Positions 45,864 to 53,164 of a DNA stretch of 53,164 bases are shown piece by piece. The stretch is taken from NCBI GenBank assembly GCA_020048895.1, contig JAIFLV010000002.1, forward strand, positions 1 to 53,164. The letters are read 5' to 3'. The notes beneath the pieces are model-generated. The model ran no database searches and was not told the origin of the DNA. It worked only from the letters and a program-made list of their open reading frames with translations. Numbering within the stretch: position 1 is the first letter of the stretch; the number at the start of each line of letters is the position of its first letter. Source of the DNA: Rhodoferax sp. (GTDB lineage: Bacteria > Pseudomonadota > Gammaproteobacteria > Burkholderiales > Burkholderiaceae_C). A program made the translations under genes and the position numbers.

Positions 45864-46481
45864 TCAGCGTTTGCGCAGCCCGTCGAAGCAGGTGGATAGC
45901 ACCATGTCGATGATCTGGTCGTCGCTGTACAGGTCTCCCATCTTCAGGAATTCCAGCACCGGGTCACACGCCCGGGCAAACAGGGTGTAGAGCACCGCAA
46001 TGGCTGGCAAGCCAGTATTGAGCAAGCCTTGTTCCTGCGCCAATTCGATCCAGGCGCCCAACCGGTCACTCACGTCCATCAGACCATCCATGTAATCCCT
46101 GTTGCCCATCAAGGTGGTGCGCAGGCTCGAGTTCTGGCTCGGCAAAGAAGGCATTTCGCCTGCCAGTTTCAAGCCCATGGTCCAGCGTACAACCTGGCGC
46201 AGTTTCTCCAGCGCCGTCAGATCGTCTGCCAGGGAATCGAGGAAGGACTGCGCTCGGCGCATCACCGACACCATGGCGGCAGCCGCCAGGTCTTCTTTGC
46301 TGGGAAAGTGCTTGTACAGACTGGCTTTGGCAATGCCGACATCGGCTGCGACCTCGTCCACGGTCATGGCCTCAAAGCCTTTTTCAGCCAGCAGGCGATT
46401 GACGGTCTGAATGATCGCGTCTTCACGCGCCTGCAACATTTGCTCCTTGAAGGAGACTTTTACAACATTGGAAGTAGCCAT
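45864..46481 (-). CDS. TetR-family transcriptional regulator
   Basis: The product has 205 residues from ATG 46481 (MATSNVVKV). The N-terminal helix-turn-helix is AMTVDEVAADVGIAKASLYKHFPSKEDL (about residues 38-65, given here as landmarks MTVDEVAADVG and ASLYKHFPSK). The C-terminal ligand domain is of unknown specificity. It is divergent from the flavoprotein operon, 120 bases away, and a near-palindrome suited to a TetR dimer lies between, so it probably controls that operon and itself (inference). TetR regulators of lipid genes often sense acyl-CoA or fatty acids. Confidence 0.92.
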   Translation of the reverse strand: MATSNVVKVSFKEQMLQAREDAIIQTVNRLLAEKGFEAMTVDEVAADVGIAKASLYKHFPSKEDLAAAAMVSVMRRAQSFLDSLADDLTALEKLRQVVRWTMGLKLAGEMPSLPSQNSSLRTTLMGNRDYMDGLMDVSDRLGAWIELAQEQGLLNTGLPAIAVLYTLFARACDPVLEFLKMGDLYSDDQIIDMVLSTCFDGLRKR

Positions 46482-46550
46482 GGTCAAATTTTAACCTGCA
46501 AAGTCTGACGATAAAACACATTGGATAAAATAATACTGTATAGTCTAGTA

Positions 46551-46567
46551 AATACTGATCGGTAATT
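46551..46567. promoter_or_regulatory. Candidate TetR operator
   Basis: AATACTGATCGGTAATT is a near-perfect palindrome centred on GATC (TAC-TGATCG-GTA core). An additional inverted pair ATCGGT (46558-46563) and ACCGAT (46579-46584) extends over the start region. Upstream, TTGGAT (46521) and TCTAGT (46544) spaced by 17 bases could be the promoter, which this site would block. Confidence 0.5.
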
Positions 46568-46601
46568 TTTCGATCAACACCGATGAAAGTTCTGCGCACA
46601 G

Positions 46602-47921
46602 ATGAAAGTTGCTATCGTTGGATCGGGAATCGCGGGACTGGCTGCCGCCCATGCGCTCAAGGGCAAAGCAGAGGTCACACTGCTGGAGGCCGGCACGTAT
46701 TTTGGCGGTCATACCCACACCGTGGACGTGTCGTTGCCCACATCGCACGGCGTGGTTAGCCACGGCGTGGATACTGGTTTCCTGGTGCTAAACGAGCGTA
46801 CCTATCCTCAACTGATCCGACTTCTGGCCGAACTTGGGGTGGCTACAGCGCCATCGGATATGTCGTTTTCCGTCCAGGCGCGCGATTTTGCATCGGGTGA
46901 CGCACTGGAGTGGAGCGGCTCCAGCCTCAACACGGTCTTTGCACAGCGCGCCAACCTGCTCAACCCGCGCTTCTGGGGCATGCTCAAGGACTTGTTGCGT
47001 TTCAACGCCTTGACAACGGGCCTGGCCCAGTCAGGTGCTGCCGTTCAGATGGCGCAGCCTTTGGGTGATTTTTTGCAGGAGCACCGCTTCGGCAAGGCTT
47101 TTTGCGATTGGTACTTTCTCCCCATGATGGCCTGCATCTGGAGCTGCCCGACAGCCCAGATGCTGCAGTTTCCTGTCTCCACCATGGTGCGTTTTTGCTA
47201 CAACCATGGCCTGTTGCAAGTCACCAACCGGCCTCAGTGGTGGACGGTGCAGGGCGGTGCCAGGAACTACGTGGACAGAATCGCCGCGCACATTGCAGAC
47301 AAGCGCCTGAATGCTCCGGTGCGACGCATTTCATCCGACAGCACAGACACCCAGCAGCAGGGTTCGGTATTGATTGCCACAGACTCCGGGGTGGAGTGCT
47401 TTCACAAAGTCATCATTGCCACCCACTCCGACCAGGCACTGGCCCTGCTGGCCGCTCCTTCGAGCAAGGAGCAAAGCACGCTCAGTGCCATCGGCTATCA
47501 GGCGAATGTGGCAGTTCTGCACACCGATACCACCGTGCTGCCCGTACGCCAGCGTGCCTGGGCCGCCTGGAACTATGAGCGCTCGTCGGTGCCGGGGCAG
47601 GAAGGTGCGCAGGTGTGCCTGCATTACCTGCTCAATCGCCTGCAACCGCTGCCCTGGGAGCAACCGGTGGTGGTGTCTCTCAACCCGGTGCGACCGATTG
47701 CCGCCGACAAAGTGCTCGGACGGTACGAGTATGCCCACCCAGTGTTTGATCTCGCTGCGGTGGCGGCACAGCGCCACATGGATGCCTTGCAGGGTGAAAA
47801 CGGTCGCTACTATTGCGGTGCCTGGATGGGCTACGGTTTTCACGAAGACGGCCTCAAGGCCGGGCTGGCTGCGGCACAGCGCCTATTGGCCGATATCGGC
47901 CACCAGGGAGCTTTAGCGTGA
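46602..47921 (+). CDS. FAD-dependent amine-oxidase-like oxidoreductase
   Basis: The product has 439 residues. It has an N-terminal Rossmann motif VGSGIAGLAAAHAL (about 6-19), then LEAGTYFGGHTHTV, and a C-terminal FAD motif YYCGAWMGYGFHEDGL typical of flavin amine oxidases and phytoene-desaturase-like enzymes. Relatives are routinely found next to DUF1365 and Cfa-like genes and are thought to act on membrane fatty acyl chains. The bases GATGAAAGTT occur twice (46582 and 46601); the first ATG (46583) is out of frame. The next gene overlaps its stop (GTGA). Confidence 0.88.
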   Translation: MKVAIVGSGIAGLAAAHALKGKAEVTLLEAGTYFGGHTHTVDVSLPTSHGVVSHGVDTGFLVLNERTYPQLIRLLAELGVATAPSDMSFSVQARDFASGDALEWSGSSLNTVFAQRANLLNPRFWGMLKDLLRFNALTTGLAQSGAAVQMAQPLGDFLQEHRFGKAFCDWYFLPMMACIWSCPTAQMLQFPVSTMVRFCYNHGLLQVTNRPQWWTVQGGARNYVDRIAAHIADKRLNAPVRRISSDSTDTQQQGSVLIATDSGVECFHKVIIATHSDQALALLAAPSSKEQSTLSAIGYQANVAVLHTDTTVLPVRQRAWAAWNYERSSVPGQEGAQVCLHYLLNRLQPLPWEQPVVVSLNPVRPIAADKVLGRYEYAHPVFDLAAVAAQRHMDALQGENGRYYCGAWMGYGFHEDGLKAGLAAAQRLLADIGHQGALA

Positions 47922-48724
47922 ACGTACCGTTGCCGCTGGTGGGCTTTGGGCAGGTGCGGCACAGCCGTCTGCGTCCACAGCAGCACGCCTTTGCTTACCC
48001 TACTTACTTCCTGATGCTGCCCCTGCGCACATTAACTGCACAGTCACAGGCCGCACAGAACCCACAGAATGCTTCCTGGGCGATCAATCGTCCCGGACTC
48101 CTGAGCTTTTTTGAGACCGACCACGGCGATGGCCGCTCGCTCGCGCAGGGTGGGGCGCTTGCCTGGCTAGACGAATTGCTGCGCGGTCACGGTATTGCCG
48201 ATGCGACCGGCGAAGTGTGGTTGCATTGCTATCCACGGGTTTTGGGGTTTACGTTCAAGCCGGTCAGTTTCTGGTATTGCCACCGTGCGGCAGACGACCA
48301 GGGCGGGGCATTGCGGGCCATCGTGGTGGAAGTGAACAACACCTTTGGCGAGCGGCATTGCTATCTGCTGGAGGCACCGCGCTACGGTGTGGAGCAGCGC
48401 GCCGACAAGGTGATGCATGTATCACCTTTCAACCCGGTACAGGGGCATTACCGGTTTCGCTTCATGCGCAGCCAGTCGCAGGATGCACAGCGCACGGTGG
48501 CACGCATTGACTACTGCGACGACGACGGTGTGCTGGTGCAAACCAGTGTCAGCGGTGTGTTGGAGCCGTTGACGCCTGCGTCCCAGCGACGTGCCTTGTG
48601 GCGCTACCCGTTGATGACCCTGGGTGTGGTGTGGCACATCCATCTGCAGGCAGCTCGCCTGTGGTTCAAGAAGGTCCCGTTTTTTCGCAAGCCCCAGCCC
48701 CCAGAAGCTTTTGTTACCCGTTAA
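47918..48724 (+). CDS. DUF1365 protein
   Basis: The product has 268 residues from GTG 47918, which overlaps the preceding stop by four bases. Family landmarks are GQVRHSRLRPQQHAFAYPTYF near the start (residues 10-30), PRVLGFTFKPVSFWYCH, and VNNTFGERHCYLL, then MHVSPFNP with YRFRF. The domain has no established biochemical activity but is nearly always adjacent to Cfa-type methyltransferase and flavoprotein genes. It probably acts with them on lipids (inference). Confidence 0.88.
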   Translation: MNVPLPLVGFGQVRHSRLRPQQHAFAYPTYFLMLPLRTLTAQSQAAQNPQNASWAINRPGLLSFFETDHGDGRSLAQGGALAWLDELLRGHGIADATGEVWLHCYPRVLGFTFKPVSFWYCHRAADDQGGALRAIVVEVNNTFGERHCYLLEAPRYGVEQRADKVMHVSPFNPVQGHYRFRFMRSQSQDAQRTVARIDYCDDDGVLVQTSVSGVLEPLTPASQRRALWRYPLMTLGVVWHIHLQAARLWFKKVPFFRKPQPPEAFVTR

Positions 48725-48755
48725 CCCGCACCATTTACCTTGATTGGAGATGACC

Positions 48756-50012
48756 ATGAATACCGTCACCACCGCTGTCCCTTTCGCCGCCCCCAAGGGT
48801 GCCCCTGCTGCCGCTCGCACGGCACTGGCCTTGCTTCAAAACCTGCGTCACGGGGCGCTGACCCTGCATCTGCCCGATGGCTCGCAGCGCCGCTACGGCG
48901 AGCATCCGCAGCAGCACAGCATGCACACGCCCGACCACCCCAGCGCCAGCATCACACTGCACAACTGGAATGTGTTTGGGGCAGCCCTCAAGTCCGGCGA
49001 CATCGGTTTTGCCGAGAGCTATATTGCCGGTGACTGGACGACCCCTGACCTTACCGAGTTGCTCAAGGTGTTTTCGGCCAACCGCGCCGAAGTCGACGCC
49101 ATGGTGTTTGGCACCTGGGGCGGGCGCTTGCTGTACCGCATCAAGCACCTGCTGCAGCACAACAGCCGCACCAATAGCCGCAAGAACATCCATGCCCACT
49201 ACGACCTGGGTAACGCCTTTTATGGGTTGTGGCTGGATGAGACCATGAACTATTCGTCAGCCTGGTTTGAGGGCGATCACTCGCGCGCGCTGCCGCAGGC
49301 ACAGACCGCCAAGGTGCGCCGTGCGCTCGACATGGCCGGGGTACGCGGGGGTGATCGCGTTCTGGAAATCGGCTGTGGTTGGGGGGCGCTGGCGCAGGAA
49401 GCCACACAGCGCGGTGCCAGCGTGGTGGGGGTGACCTTGAGTACCGAGCAACTAGCCTTTGCCAATGCGCGTATGCACCGTCTCGGCGTGGCGACCGGCG
49501 CAGGCGCGACGGCAGACTTGCGCCTGCAGGACTATCGTGACATCCACGATGCGCCATTTGATGCCATCTGCTCCATTGAAATGGTGGAAGCAGTAGGCCG
49601 GGAGTATTGGCCACAGTACTTCCAGACCGTGAGCAGATTGCTTAAACCAGGTGGACGCGCATGCATACAAAGCATCGTGATCGACGATGCGCTTTTTGAC
49701 CGCTACGTCCGATCCACCGACTTTATCCAGCAGTACATTTTTCCGGGCGGCTGCCTTCCATGCCCGCGCGAATTCCGACGCCAGGCGCAGGCCGCGGGAC
49801 TGCGGGTAGTGGATGAATTCGCCTTTGGACGTGATTACGCAGAGACGCTGCGCCGCTGGCGCGATGCATTTCTGGCGCGCAAGGCGGAGGTGACGGCCCT
49901 GGGCTTTGACGAGCGCTTTCTGCGCATCTGGGAGTTTTACCTTTGTTACTGCGAGGCAGCTTTCGAGACTGGCGACATAAGCCTCGTGCAATACACCCTG
50001 GTCAAGATTTAG
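48756..50012 (+). CDS. Cfa-like SAM-dependent fatty acyl methyltransferase
   Basis: The product has 418 residues from ATG 48756, with GGAG seven bases upstream. It has the SAM motif VLEIGCGWGALA (about 202-213) and the CFA fold, with HYDLGNAFYGLWLD, IHDAPFDAICSIEMVEAVG and YIFPGGCLP. Aligned by eye with E. coli Cfa, Glu239 corresponds to E278, Tyr317 to Y361 and Ile268 to I307, but Cys139 is replaced by S168 (NYSSAW) and His266 by Q305 (CIQSIV). Both are bicarbonate-site residues of cyclopropane synthases. This favours a methyltransferase that makes a different product, such as a methyl-branched chain, over a true cyclopropane synthase (inference). Confidence 0.88.
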   Translation: MNTVTTAVPFAAPKGAPAAARTALALLQNLRHGALTLHLPDGSQRRYGEHPQQHSMHTPDHPSASITLHNWNVFGAALKSGDIGFAESYIAGDWTTPDLTELLKVFSANRAEVDAMVFGTWGGRLLYRIKHLLQHNSRTNSRKNIHAHYDLGNAFYGLWLDETMNYSSAWFEGDHSRALPQAQTAKVRRALDMAGVRGGDRVLEIGCGWGALAQEATQRGASVVGVTLSTEQLAFANARMHRLGVATGAGATADLRLQDYRDIHDAPFDAICSIEMVEAVGREYWPQYFQTVSRLLKPGGRACIQSIVIDDALFDRYVRSTDFIQQYIFPGGCLPCPREFRRQAQAAGLRVVDEFAFGRDYAETLRRWRDAFLARKAEVTALGFDERFLRIWEFYLCYCEAAFETGDISLVQYTLVKI

Positions 50013-50021
50013 GCCGAAAAT

Positions 50022-50070
50022 GCTATGAAAAAAGTAGCTTCTTACGCACTATTGGTGGGCGTTATTGCCG
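50022..50070. repeat. Interspersed ~48-bp repeat, copy 8 (start of chalcone-isomerase-like gene)
   Basis: The minus strand reads GGCAATAACGCCCACC, AATAGTGCGTAAGAAGCTAC and TTTTTTCATAGC, aligning with copy 6 without gaps. On the plus strand it contains the ATG (50025) and the first 15 codons of the following gene, i.e. most of its signal peptide. Confidence 0.6.
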
Positions 50071-50576
50071 CTTTCTGTTTGCAAGCGCGGGCACAAACTT
50101 TGTCGCCCGAACTGCGCAGTGTGCTGCCTGAGGCGACGCTGTCGGGTCAGGCAACGATGACGTTCTGGGGATTTGACGTGTACCGGGCTGGCTTGTGGGC
50201 AGCACCGGGGTTCGATGCAGCGCAATACCACCAAACACCATTTGCCTTGAGCCTGACCTACCTGCGCAGCTTACGGGGTGGAGAGATCGCCAAGCGCTCC
50301 ATTGCAGAAATGCGGCGTCAAGGGCCGATGACGGCCCAGGACGAAGCCGCTTGGGAAAGTCAAATGACCGCACTTTTTCCCAATGTGAATTCGGGCGATA
50401 ACTTGACCGGAGTGCATCTTCCCGGTCGCGGTGCCGAGTTCTGGAGCGGTGGCAGAAAGCTGGGGGAAGTGCGTGATGTCGCATTCTCGCAGCGCTTCTT
50501 TGGCATCTGGCTGTCAACGCAGACCTCGGAGCCGGCATTGCGGCTGGCACTGCTCTCCGGCGCCAAGCCGCCATGA
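50025..50576 (+). CDS. Chalcone-isomerase-like secreted protein
   Basis: The product has 183 residues. It has a Sec signal peptide MKKVASYALLVGVIAAF with cleavage likely after QARA. The mature part shows the chalcone isomerase-like fold features ATMTFWGFDVYRAGLWA and SLTYLRSLRGGEIAKRSIAEM, and GVHLPGRGAEFW. Bacterial members do not carry a demonstrated flavonoid activity; a fatty-acid-binding role, as for plant FAP proteins, would fit the operon (inference). The start codon and signal peptide lie within an interspersed repeat. There is no good ribosome site. It starts 12 bases after the Cfa-like gene, and the next gene overlaps its stop. Confidence 0.85.
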   Translation: MKKVASYALLVGVIAAFCLQARAQTLSPELRSVLPEATLSGQATMTFWGFDVYRAGLWAAPGFDAAQYHQTPFALSLTYLRSLRGGEIAKRSIAEMRRQGPMTAQDEAAWESQMTALFPNVNSGDNLTGVHLPGRGAEFWSGGRKLGEVRDVAFSQRFFGIWLSTQTSEPALRLALLSGAKPP

Positions 50577-51892
50577 CGAACACGGTTCCTGCGCCCGCAC
50601 CATGGGGCATGTTGCACGGCGTGCGCTACGGGCTGATAGGGTTTCCGTTAGCCTTCTGTGCGCTGCCGCTGTATGTGTGGATGCCCAACCTATACGCCCG
50701 CGAGTGGGGCGTGTCGTTGGCGGCGCTTGGTGCGGTATTGTTGGGCGCGCGCTTGTTCGATGCTGTCATCGACCCGGTGCTTGGGAGGCTGTGCGATCGG
50801 ATGTATGCGCATTCGTTGCGTGCGGTGCTTCTGTTCGGTGCTGCCGCCGCTGCAGTGCTGGCGCTGGGTTTTTCACTGCTCTTTGTTCCACCCCTACGGG
50901 AACCAGAGTTGCTCGTGTGGTGGGCTGCAGTCTGGTTGATTGTCACCTACGCCGCCTACAGCGCATTGTCCGTAGCCCATCAATCGTGGGGAGCCAAGCT
51001 TGGCGGTGACGCGGTTTTTCGCAGCCGGGTGGTGGCGTGGCGAGAGGGCCTTGGCTTGGTCGGCGTTGTCATGGCAGCTGTCACACCCGCGGTCGGTGGG
51101 GTACCGATGCTGTTGGCCCTGTTGCTCATCGGTCTCGCAGTTGGTATGTGGGCTTGGCTCAGAGCGCCCCGTCCAGCATTTCTGCCCTTGCCCGAACCTG
51201 GTGATGTCAGCGCTGCAGACGCAAGGAGCACTACACGTTCCTGGTTGTGGCAACCCTGGCGAAGTGCCGCATTCCGGCGATTGCTGGTGGTTTACCTGAT
51301 CAACGGCATCGCAAGCGCGATACCAGCCACACTGGTGCTGTTTTTTGTGCAGGATCGCCTGCAAGCAGGGGAGTCCATGCAGTCGGCTGCCCTGGGGCTC
51401 TATTTCGTGAGCGGTGCGTTGTCTATGCCGGTCTGGCTGCAGTGCGTCCGGTATTGGGGACTTGAGCGTTCCTGGCTTTTTGGTATGGTCTTGTCGATTG
51501 CCGCATTCTTGGGAGCATCGCTGCTCGGGGCGGGCGACGCTGGCCTGTTTCTGGTGATTTGTGCGCTCTCGGGTTTTGCGCTGGGTTCCGATCTGGCGCT
51601 GCCGGGCGCACTGCTGGCAGGAGTTATCGCCCAGGCAGGTGACCAGGGGCGTGCCGAGGGTTCTTACTTCGGGTGGTGGAATTTCGCCACCAAGCTCAAT
51701 CTGGCGTTGGCCGCCGGCCTGGCCCTGCCACTGCTGGGATGGCTTGGGTACGCGCCGGGCGCGCGTGATGCGCATGCCCTGCAGATGCTTACCGTGGCCT
51801 ACTGTCTCGTTCCCTGTGGCTTGAAGGGGCTGGCGGCTGCAACTCTGGTTTACCTTATCCCACCTCGCACTGCGGTGCAAACTACCTTATGA
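50573..51892 (+). CDS. MFS transporter, GPH (sugar/cation symporter) type
   Basis: The product has 439 residues with about 12 predicted membrane segments. Near the N-terminus LYVWMPNLYA is followed by GARLFDAVIDPVLGRLCDR, the GPH/MFS signature between segments 2 and 3. A similar layout recurs in the C-terminal half. The substrate is unknown; co-location with fatty acyl modifying genes suggests export or flipping of a lipid-related molecule (inference). Four-base overlaps on both sides imply translational coupling. Confidence 0.88.
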   Translation: MTNTVPAPAPWGMLHGVRYGLIGFPLAFCALPLYVWMPNLYAREWGVSLAALGAVLLGARLFDAVIDPVLGRLCDRMYAHSLRAVLLFGAAAAAVLALGFSLLFVPPLREPELLVWWAAVWLIVTYAAYSALSVAHQSWGAKLGGDAVFRSRVVAWREGLGLVGVVMAAVTPAVGGVPMLLALLLIGLAVGMWAWLRAPRPAFLPLPEPGDVSAADARSTTRSWLWQPWRSAAFRRLLVVYLINGIASAIPATLVLFFVQDRLQAGESMQSAALGLYFVSGALSMPVWLQCVRYWGLERSWLFGMVLSIAAFLGASLLGAGDAGLFLVICALSGFALGSDLALPGALLAGVIAQAGDQGRAEGSYFGWWNFATKLNLALAAGLALPLLGWLGYAPGARDAHALQMLTVAYCLVPCGLKGLAAATLVYLIPPRTAVQTTL

Positions 51893-52434
51893 AACTCTAC
51901 CAATCCCTTTTTCGCTCCGCCTGCGTTGCGGTTCTGTCGGCTTTGTTGCTGGTCGGTTGCAGCACGCCACAAATTCAGGACTATGCCGCTGAAAAGCCTG
52001 TGCTGGAACTGCGTGACTATTTCAATGGAACGCTGGATGCCTATGGTGTCTTTACCGACCGGTCCGGCAAGGTGGTCAAGCGCTTTACGGTGGTGATGGA
52101 GTGTTCCTGGCAAGGTGACGCCGGGGTGCTCGATGAGGCATTTACCTACTCGGATGGGACCACCCAGCGGCGCGTCTGGCGACTCACACGCTACGCGGAT
52201 GGCCGCTACACCGGCACCGCCGACGATGTGATCGGCATCGCCAACGGCCAGCAGCAAGGCAATGCATTTCATTGGACCTACACACTGGCGCTGCCAGTTG
52301 ATGGACGCATCATCGAAGTGCAATTTGATGACTGGATGTACCTGATGAACCAACGTGTGATGCTCAACAAGGCAGCCATGCGCCAGTGGGGCATCGATCT
52401 GGGCGAAGTCACCCTGTCTTTCGTCAAGCGTTGA
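51889..52434 (+). CDS. DUF3833 lipoprotein
   Basis: The product has 181 residues. The signal peptide ends in a lipobox (LLLVGCS, Cys at about residue 24), so it should be anchored in a membrane on the periplasmic side. The DUF3833 core is LRDYFNGTLDAYGVFTDRSGKVV, given here as residues 41-63, then FDDWMYLMNQRVMLNKAAM. No biochemical function is known. It overlaps the MFS gene by four bases and is followed by an SDR two bases later. Confidence 0.86.
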   Translation: MKLYQSLFRSACVAVLSALLLVGCSTPQIQDYAAEKPVLELRDYFNGTLDAYGVFTDRSGKVVKRFTVVMECSWQGDAGVLDEAFTYSDGTTQRRVWRLTRYADGRYTGTADDVIGIANGQQQGNAFHWTYTLALPVDGRIIEVQFDDWMYLMNQRVMLNKAAMRQWGIDLGEVTLSFVKR

Positions 52435-52436
52435 CC

Positions 52437-53164
52437 ATGGTTTTTCCCTTTATGCCGCTGAATCCACGCATGGACCACTGGGTCGGTCGGCGGGTTTGGC
52501 TGGTGGGCGCTTCCACCGGCATTGGCCGCGCGACCGCTTCTGCCTTGCACGCAGCAGGGGCTGCCGTGATCATCTCTGCGCGCAGCACCCATGCGCTGGA
52601 GAGTTTTGTCACTGAGCATCCGGGCGCGCAAGCGCTGGTGCTGGATGTCACTGACGTGCATGCGGTGCGCCAGTGCGCCAATAGCCTTTTTCTACAAGGT
52701 GCCGTGGACTGTGTGGTCTATTGCGCAGGGCACTACCATGCCATGGAAGCCACCCGGATCGACCTCGCGGACATGGAACGCCACAACCAGGTCAATTACC
52801 TGGGTGCGCTGTACCTGATCGATGCGGTATTGCCACACTGGCTGAGTCTGCCAGTCGACCAACGCGGCCATATCAGTCTGGTCGGTAGCGTGGCCGGATA
52901 CCGGGGGTTGCCGCAAAGCCTGGCCTACGGCCCAACGAAGGCCGCGTTGATCAATCTGGCCGAAACCTTATACCTGGATCTCCAACCCTGTGGCATCGGC
53001 GTGTCATTAGTCAATCCCGGATTTGTCGACACGCCGCTGACTGCGCAAAATCGCTTCAAGATGCCAGCCTTGCTGACGCCACAGGACGCCGCCACTGCCA
53101 TCCTGCACGGATGGTCACGGGGTGCCTTCGAAATCCATTTCCCCAGGCGCTTTACTTTTTGGCT
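52437..53164 (+). CDS. Short-chain dehydrogenase, 3' end outside window
   Basis: The open frame runs from ATG 52437 past the right edge (at least 242 codons). The cofactor motif is VGASTGIG (about 23-30), the Ser is in VGSVAGYRG and the catalytic pair in YGPTK, followed by NPGFVDTPLT. It starts two bases after the DUF3833 gene and is probably the last or near-last gene of the operon. SDRs of this type accompany Cfa-like/DUF1365 clusters elsewhere. It resembles the two SDRs at 15929 and 16782 only in the shared family motifs. Confidence 0.9.
   Translation, partial: MVFPFMPLNPRMDHWVGRRVWLVGASTGIGRATASALHAAGAAVIISARSTHALESFVTEHPGAQALVLDVTDVHAVRQCANSLFLQGAVDCVVYCAGHYHAMEATRIDLADMERHNQVNYLGALYLIDAVLPHWLSLPVDQRGHISLVGSVAGYRGLPQSLAYGPTKAALINLAETLYLDLQPCGIGVSLVNPGFVDTPLTAQNRFKMPALLTPQDAATAILHGWSRGAFEIHFPRRFTFW

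Follow-up and report, generated by a model that had tools for sequence, protein, structure and literature searches.

A predicted furan fatty acid operon in Rhodoferax with signs of a TetR-type switch acting through paired sites

Results

Organization of the locus

The window, that is, the whole stretch of DNA analysed, is an entire Rhodoferax sp. contig (C72) of 53,164 bases. Seven close-set genes occupy positions 46602-53162, the last of which, for an SDR oxidoreductase, runs off the contig end, and a divergent tetR gene lies on the minus strand at 45864-46481, with a spacing of 120 bases between tetR and ufaD. The intergenic gaps from ufaD to the SDR gene are -4, 31, 12, -4, -4 and 2 bases. 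An earlier note on this DNA had described seven coupled genes at 46551..53164, which was confirmed, all seven being matched to families; the TetR gene falls slightly outside that range. The features are the following:

45864..46481, minus strand: TetR-family regulator, 205 aa (Pfam TetR_N, PF00440, 2.6e-17)
46533..46546, no strand: predicted operator 1, ATACTGTATAGTCT, from motif discovery and scoring
46552..46565, no strand: predicted operator 2, ATACTGATCGGTAA, 19 bases from operator 1
46602..47921, plus strand: UfaD-type flavoprotein (PF01593; synteny), putative fatty acyl desaturase by analogy (PMC7380195)
47918..48724, plus strand: UfaO, DUF1365, GTG start (PF07103, E 7e-76)
48756..50012, plus strand: UfaM-type fatty acyl methyltransferase, CMAS (PF02353, E 4e-80)
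50025..50576, plus strand: chalcone-isomerase-like (CHI-like) protein, Chalcone_3 (PF16036, E 1.7e-12), signal peptide by eye
50573..51892, plus strand: GPH-type MFS_2 transporter (PF13347, 5.9e-47), RSP_1089 counterpart by family
51889..52434, plus strand: DUF3833 lipoprotein (PF12915, 2.1e-70), lipobox LVGC at residues 21-24 by eye
52437..53162, plus strand: SDR oxidoreductase, incomplete at the contig end (PF00106, 8e-35), RSP_1087 counterpart by family

In relatives, a SnoaL_2 gene is often found 3' of the SDR gene.

Core enzymes and the UfaM active site

UfaO adjoins the UfaD-type flavoprotein and, as judged from gene order and residues, a UfaM-type methyltransferase lies within the same operon. 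UfaD, UfaO and UfaM stand in an order identical to that of the R. palustris genes that were experimentally tied to furan fatty acid (FuFA) production (PMC7380195). These three assignments, and with them the correspondence to the R. sphaeroides and R. palustris proteins (e.g., RSP_2144, RPA2569), were made by family, order and residues. At this level, the core of the seven-gene set corresponds to the enzymes known to produce antioxidant FuFA, here in a beta-proteobacterium. The three core enzyme families are common to the UfaM-UfaD-UfaO pathway of R. sphaeroides and R. palustris (PMC7380195), whereas the window adds the CHI-like, GPH, DUF3833 and SDR genes in a single operon and has TetR in place of RpoE-ChrR. 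That several members have no known function, as had been noted, still holds for DUF3833 and no longer for UfaD, UfaO and UfaM, whose homologues have demonstrated functions.

The methyltransferase, earlier called an atypical Cfa enzyme, has a UfaM-type active site. CFA synthase binds bicarbonate through Glu239, His266 and Tyr317 (PMC11387697). In the alignment to E. coli Cfa (6BQC), the window enzyme, also of the CMAS family, keeps the Glu239 and Tyr317 equivalents but has Gln305 at the position of His266, Ala279 at that of His240 and Glu275 at that of Gly236, so that the ligand set of a CFA synthase is incomplete. Glutamine occupies the His266 position in 132/132 aligned rows, and the glutamate at Gly236 is common to nearby CMAS paralogues too. 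The Ala/Gln pair sets furan-pathway methyltransferases apart from true cyclopropane synthases in annotation.

Conservation of the gene set and the accessory proteins

A non-random set of 140 loci was fetched by DUF1365 score, 84 from the same family and 56 from outside it (with L074, from G088, counted within the family), and their gene-order lists include spurious ORFs and misplaced starts, as at L050. UfaD, UfaO and UfaM occurred jointly in 84/84 of the fetched same-family loci and the CHI-like gene in 66, while all seven families were found together in 62 of the 84, indicating that the arrangement is not due to chance and that the gene set is ordinary for the family. The secreted chalcone-isomerase-like member singled out earlier is present, with its signal peptide, but is not special to this genome.

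The CHI-like protein has a predicted CHI/FAP fold (model pLDDT 86.0) in common with plant chalcone isomerase and FAP, from which it differs in being secreted and bacterial, its identity to the aligned CHI and FAP sequences being 9-13%; a phmmer search against solved structures produced two matches, both with E above 0.3. DUF3833 was modelled as a nitrobindin/FABP-like beta barrel (pLDDT 79.7). Together, these predicted folds make a role of both proteins in lipid handling in the envelope plausible, and two folds of lipid-binding type provide a first testable idea for them. The transporter scored 76 bits with the GPH model TIGR00792, below the curated cut-off of 231 bits, and cleared the threshold of the broader Pfam family MFS_2. 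An MFSD2A-like lipid flippase was also considered; as a profile search of solved structures matched MelB alone (two entries, E 5e-4 and 6e-4), this idea was left without support. The R. sphaeroides fatty acid profile was the same after deletion of RSP_1087, 1088 or 1089 (PMC7380195), so the accessory genes may be unrelated to FuFA.

A TetR regulator and its candidate paired operator

A paired palindrome, ATACT-N4-AGTAT in two copies 19-20 bp apart, was detected upstream of ufaD. In the window the pair scores 30.6 bits, and no other pair with a spacing of 19 or 20 reaches 8 bits anywhere in the 53,164 bases. The TetR gene was present as a single copy in 57 of the 80 family genomes searched (a set that left out G155, G038, G122, G140 and G088), and in 50 of those 57 relatives it is located away from the operon. 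An environmental relative that shares the layout of the window is Polaromonas sp. CF318 (L197). The operator pair preceded ufaD in 36/56 genomes with TetR, a count that takes in G010 at 240 bits and G163, whose gene is partial, at 142 bits, versus 3/23 without it, and none of 938 control windows reached the level of the pair. As these controls are mostly coding and AT-poorer than promoters, the TetR-negative promoters are the fairer control. The same comparison is also a better test of the operator than the held-out count of 18/32 pairs, which is rough, one training fold having settled on an off-register motif.

Exceptions were found on both sides. In 20/56 TetR-positive genomes no pair was detected by the matrix used; among the six other genomes with an adjacent TetR, G079 has none and G125, of the window's genus, a weak one (14.1 bits). 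Three TetR-negative genomes carry a pair, G123 (23.9 bits), G045 (22.3 bits) and G130 (9.7 bits), the assemblies of the first two being fragmented (96% and 86% complete) and that of G130 not. The pair was also scored in 61 further loci (the 56 extra-family and five family loci), for which TetR was sought within the fetched locus. A pair is present at locus L050 as well. A promoter-like match ending at 46534 was discarded as being at chance level (1 found, 0.5 expected).

In the aligned TetR proteins, window included, Cys172 is found in 86/86 rows and Cys198 in 85/86. The locus combines a PF00440 protein with a palindromic site that is conserved in the promoter it would target. This upholds the TetR regulator of the earlier note and, from sequence comparison, suggests that a TetR-type repressor acting at paired sites switches the operon, in place of the regulators known to respond to singlet oxygen or light. 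Among the open-access papers listed, none linked TetR to furan fatty acids, DUF1365 or UfaM. The TetR switch looks new, while the gene set itself is ordinary for the family.

Discussion

Our preferred reading, to which we assign a probability of about 80%, is a FuFA operon under a TetR-type repressor. The analysis itself establishes which genes are present, the residues of the active site, the conservation of the operator, the co-occurrence and the predicted folds, while the host chemistry, DNA binding, repression, signal and envelope role are inferred. By analogy with the R. sphaeroides and R. palustris homologues, for which these steps were shown (PMC7380195), UfaM would methylate cis-vaccenoyl chains of membrane phospholipid, UfaD would then desaturate the methylated chain and UfaO would add oxygen derived from O2, closing a furan ring believed to act as a scavenger of singlet oxygen and radicals. 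TetR would occupy the pair of palindromes, spaced by 19 bases in the tetR-ufaD intergenic region, silencing both promoters until released by a signal, for which the two near-invariant cysteines allow a guess at thiol/electrophile or lipid oxidation chemistry. In relatives with a distant tetR, the same regulator would act from afar. The secreted CHI-fold protein, barrel lipoprotein, transporter and SDR probably act in the envelope on chains that are already modified or oxidised, handling, moving or turning them over rather than making them.

The likeness to the R. sphaeroides RpoE/ChrR regulon, pointed out in the earlier note, proved right at the family level. According to PMC7074977, PMC5507510 and PMC7380195, the RpoE-ChrR genes include RSP_1091 (UfaD), RSP_1090 (UfaO), RSP_1089 (GPH), RSP_1088 (hypothetical, its P. 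syringae homologue being termed a lipoprotein), RSP_1087 (SDR) and RSP_2144 (CfaS/UfaM). The SDR, lipoprotein, GPH, UfaO, UfaD and UfaM families are thus common to the window and the core regulon (RSP_1087-1093, RSP_2143/2144). Direct RpoE-ChrR control, as in Rhodobacter, would fit this gene set, and SigE and/or ChrR were found in 27/56 fetched extra-family loci versus 2/84 same-family loci. However, no match to ChrR (TIGR02451) was obtained in the window genome, an assembly 91.4% complete, in a search that recovered 4/4 positive controls; the four Cupin_7 matches of the window genome were not picked up by the ChrR model. The operon region also has no visible photolyase gene. Because the search found no ChrR, we rejected this mode of control, which we regard as extremely improbable; the directly controlling rpoE-chrR pair by which the earlier note would have been refuted did not turn up in this search. 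Control by something else, for instance a distant LitR/CarH-like light sensor, with TetR regulating only itself or other genes of a FuFA-producing cell, is unlikely, though less remote. LitR proteins govern light-induced ufaM in Pseudomonas, where ufaM, an FAD oxidoreductase and an SDR, gene types also present in the window, lie in one light-induced region (PMC9758184), and a gene for LitR, a B12 light sensor, lies near the operon in 40/84 fetched same-family loci. The window neighbourhood has no LitR gene beside the operon, TetR taking the divergent position instead. A weaker B12-MerR homologue is encoded elsewhere in the window genome (contig C79, 158 bits) and another in G173, where TetR also lies beside ufaD (214.5 bits), compared with 387-544 bits for the operon-linked LitR of five positive genomes; among the genomes of the 61 further loci, only G448 was searched for LitR and ChrR. 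Against such control, the pair occurs in ufaD promoters even where the TetR gene is distant, and it follows TetR presence. It is also present in 11/20 loci with both LitR and TetR, so TetR is not a plain substitute for LitR.

That the enzymes stop at, or yield, a different product, with a methyl branch or a cyclopropane ring and no furan, seems very unlikely to us. Expression of Halomonas UfaM in E. coli led to 11-methyl-octadec-12-enoate, and cyclic fatty acids were reported in ufaM and cfa strains alike (PMC12089945), but the joint occurrence of the three core genes throughout the fetched family loci and the replacement of His266 argue for the furan product.

FuFA are membrane antioxidants with known control by singlet oxygen (RpoE-ChrR) and, for ufaM, by light (LitR), and in freshwater bacteria that are common, a TetR that is conserved and has an operator legible in the sequence would add a third input. 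A single regulator and a single DNA fragment would then suffice to look for its signal. A bolder extension of the TetR reading, which we consider doubtful as a whole, is that the single-copy TetR is a dedicated third FuFA switch in many Comamonadaceae, acting in cis or in trans via the paired operator and sensing oxidised lipid or electrophiles by Cys172/Cys198, while its operon supplies an envelope route, made up of a CHI-fold carrier, an FABP-like lipoprotein and a GPH transporter, for carrying furan lipids past the inner membrane. TetR genes located away from ufaD have Usp, LysR, DAO, PhoD or fasciclin genes as neighbours, so this regulator may have other targets.

The operon and its probable lipid chemistry

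In the Rhodoferax genome (4.6 Mb in 188 contigs, with contig C72 forming the whole window), the seven genes are separated by intergenic gaps of −4, 31, 12, −4, −4 and 2 bases, and a TetR gene diverges from them:

45864-46481, divergent from the operon: TetR gene
46533-46546 and 46552-46565: two candidate operator copies, 30.6 bits together
46602 to window end, all on one strand: operon, in Pfam order Amino_oxidase, DUF1365, CMAS, Chalcone_3, MFS_2, DUF3833, adh_short

The last gene, an SDR, runs into the contig end and is incomplete; its counterparts in relatives are often followed by a SnoaL_2 gene. The observation made in the earlier note is sound, and its interpretation was mostly right. 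The likeness it draws to the RpoE/ChrR set of R. sphaeroides holds for the families of UfaD, UfaO, UfaM and RSP_1087-1089. Sections of PMC7380195 describe, in R. sphaeroides and R. palustris, methylation of cis-vaccenoyl phospholipid by UfaM, desaturation of the methylated chain by UfaD and formation of the furan ring, with O2, by UfaO, a DUF1365 protein. The window carries members of all three families, arranged as in R. palustris, and the predicted lipid chemistry of the window operon is this known pathway. RSP_1089, RSP_1088 and RSP_1087 are annotated as a GPH symporter, a hypothetical protein and an SDR (PMC7074977), a P. syringae homologue of RSP_1088 is described as a lipoprotein (passage in PMC5507510), and single deletion of each of the three RSP genes is reported to leave the fatty acid profile as before (PMC7380195). 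The statement that several members have no known function applies to the accessory genes (CHI-like, GPH transporter, DUF3833 lipoprotein, SDR) but not to UfaD, UfaO and UfaM, whose homologues have functions published in PMC7380195.

Active site of the CMAS protein

CFA synthases bind a catalytic bicarbonate through Glu239, His266 and Tyr317, according to part of PMC11387697. When the window protein was aligned to 6bqc (residues numbered manually as in E. coli, by subtracting 1 from the chain number), the Glu and Tyr ligands were retained, with His266 replaced by Gln, His240 by Ala and Gly236 by Glu. Glu, Ala and Gln occupied positions 236, 240 and 266 in all 132 CMAS rows above 450 bits (the window's own counted), and both His residues were kept in 11 of 12 lower-scoring rows, the twelfth (locus L051) being a cut UfaM gene. 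As Glu236 is common to 10 of the 11 His-keeping rows, only Ala and Gln separate the two groups, together with position 268 (Ile in the high-scoring group, Phe in 10/11 His-keeping rows). The "atypical Cfa" of the note has a UfaM-type active site. Loss of a bicarbonate ligand would fit methylation without cyclopropane ring closure. Halomonas UfaM expressed in E. coli gave 11-methyloctadec-12-enoate, and cyclic fatty acids were reported for both ufaM and cfa strains (passages in PMC12089945).

Ten furan fatty acid loci (L072, L073, L074, L075, L076, L077, L087, L132, L136 and L166; L074 and L166 belong to the window's family) have an additional CMAS gene nearby, whose six active-site positions are Glu, Glu, His, His, Phe and Tyr; in several of them DUF1295, DUF2878 or SigE-ChrR genes accompany it.

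Distribution of the gene set

A DUF1365 relative was present in 154 of 200 family genomes; in a phylum-wide sample of 299 genomes, 94 had DUF1365. Among 140 loci picked non-randomly by DUF1365 score, UfaD, UfaO and UfaM were all present in 84/84 family loci and 50/56 outside. The seven-gene set is ordinary within the family, since 62/84 family loci have all seven genes, versus 1/56 outside. The CHI-like gene occurred in 66/84 family loci versus 10/56 outside, and DUF3833 accompanied it in 73 of 76 loci.

Upstream of ufaD, two further genes recur in many family loci, nearly all on the ufaD strand. One is glutathione-peroxidase-like (43 members in its cluster, 42 of them from the family; for example L107:7170-7793), and the other encodes 313 aa and matches no Pfam family (31 members, 30 from the family; for example L056:13839-14780); neither was seen adjoining the window operon. 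Twelve loci, all in the family, have a gene with weak FA_desaturase_2/AurF matches (L100:5336-6208) that is located upstream of ufaD in the opposite orientation, often adjoining LitR. In genome G460 (C1:1215881-1216588), one in-frame TGA falls within the DUF1365 match.

A candidate TetR operator

The TetR-ufaD intergenic DNA contains the palindrome ATACT-N4-AGTAT, often in two copies 19-20 bases apart; the window pair is the sole pair of at least 8 bits in 53,164 bases. In a two-fold hold-out, one fold of which converged off register, loci with TetR adjoining ufaD had the site in 31/32 and the pair in 18/32, versus 128/640 and 1/640 shuffles. The nearest TetR relatives (best 80 of 579 in public records) include many from Rhodoferax, Polaromonas, Limnohabitans, Hydrogenophaga and similar genera, and ufaD adjoins TetR in 28 of these 80 loci. 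The other 52 had the pair in 5 and a TetR-promoter site above the 95% shuffle level in 38; for 24 of the 38 the location was constant, at two positions, a pattern indicative of putative autoregulation. On the TetR tree, whose bootstrap is not settled, ufaD-adjoining rows (32/84) required 6 label changes versus 26 in shuffles.

Possible TetR action at a distance

A single TetR orthologue was detected in 57 of the 80 family genomes searched; it adjoins ufaD in 7, the window's included. DNA before ufaD was scored in the other 79 genomes with a matrix seeded on adjacent-TetR loci and refined by five-fold cross-validation. A pair was counted when it outscored every one of 938 control windows, whose highest score was 8.2 bits. 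As these windows are mostly coding and AT-poorer, TetR-negative promoters are the fairer control.

Pairs before ufaD by regulators present
TetR adjoining ufaD (starting matrix not independent of these): 5/6
TetR elsewhere, no LitR: 20/30
TetR elsewhere, with LitR: 11/20
LitR, no TetR: 2/18
Neither: 1/5

Overall, pairs occurred in 36/56 TetR-positive versus 3/23 TetR-negative genomes (Fisher p 4e-5, uncorrected for kinship). A further 61 loci, of which 56 lie outside the family and 5 within it, yielded a pair only in L140, which alone among them had the TetR gene inside the fetched locus. A scan of up to 6 kb on each side found pairs of at least 20 bits upstream in 20/79 loci, the best pair of each lying no more than 380 bases from ufaD, and none downstream (0/79).

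LitR, a B12-binding MerR light sensor, controls light-induced genes including ufaM in Pseudomonas, as a section of PMC9758184 describes. In the fetched loci (threshold at least 100 bits), the 84 family loci had LitR in 40, TetR in 6, ChrR and SigE in 2 and none in 36; the 56 outside had ChrR and SigE in 21, ChrR only in 5, SigE only in 1, LitR in 10, TetR in 1 and none in 18. The ChrR part of the rpoE-chrR search proposed earlier was run, and the ChrR model had zero matches in the window genome and in seven others with TetR adjoining ufaD (positive controls 4/4). A single weak LitR homologue (158 bits) occurs in the window genome, so light control of the operon from elsewhere in the genome is possible. 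Across genomes, TetR was present in 36/41 with LitR-less loci versus 20/38 with LitR-bearing loci (p 0.001). Taken together, this distribution, the co-occurrence of pair and TetR and the upstream placement provide good evidence that TetR regulates the operon across a large part of the family. In the 20 TetR-positive genomes that lack a pair, the sites may be weaker or a different regulator may act.

The new part is this TetR control, with a readable candidate operator and a predicted action in trans; among the matches listed in the open-access literature, no paper links TetR to any of UfaM, DUF1365 and furan fatty acids. Cys172 (86/86 aligned TetR rows) and Cys198 (85/86) would fit a thiol switch.

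The same TetR gene adjoins fasciclin-domain genes in two Hydrogenophaga loci (L248, L249), and in a third (L253) has a strong single candidate operator, ATACTGATCAGTAT. A fasciclin gene, RSP_1409, is listed in an R. sphaeroides singlet-oxygen response table (PMC7074977).
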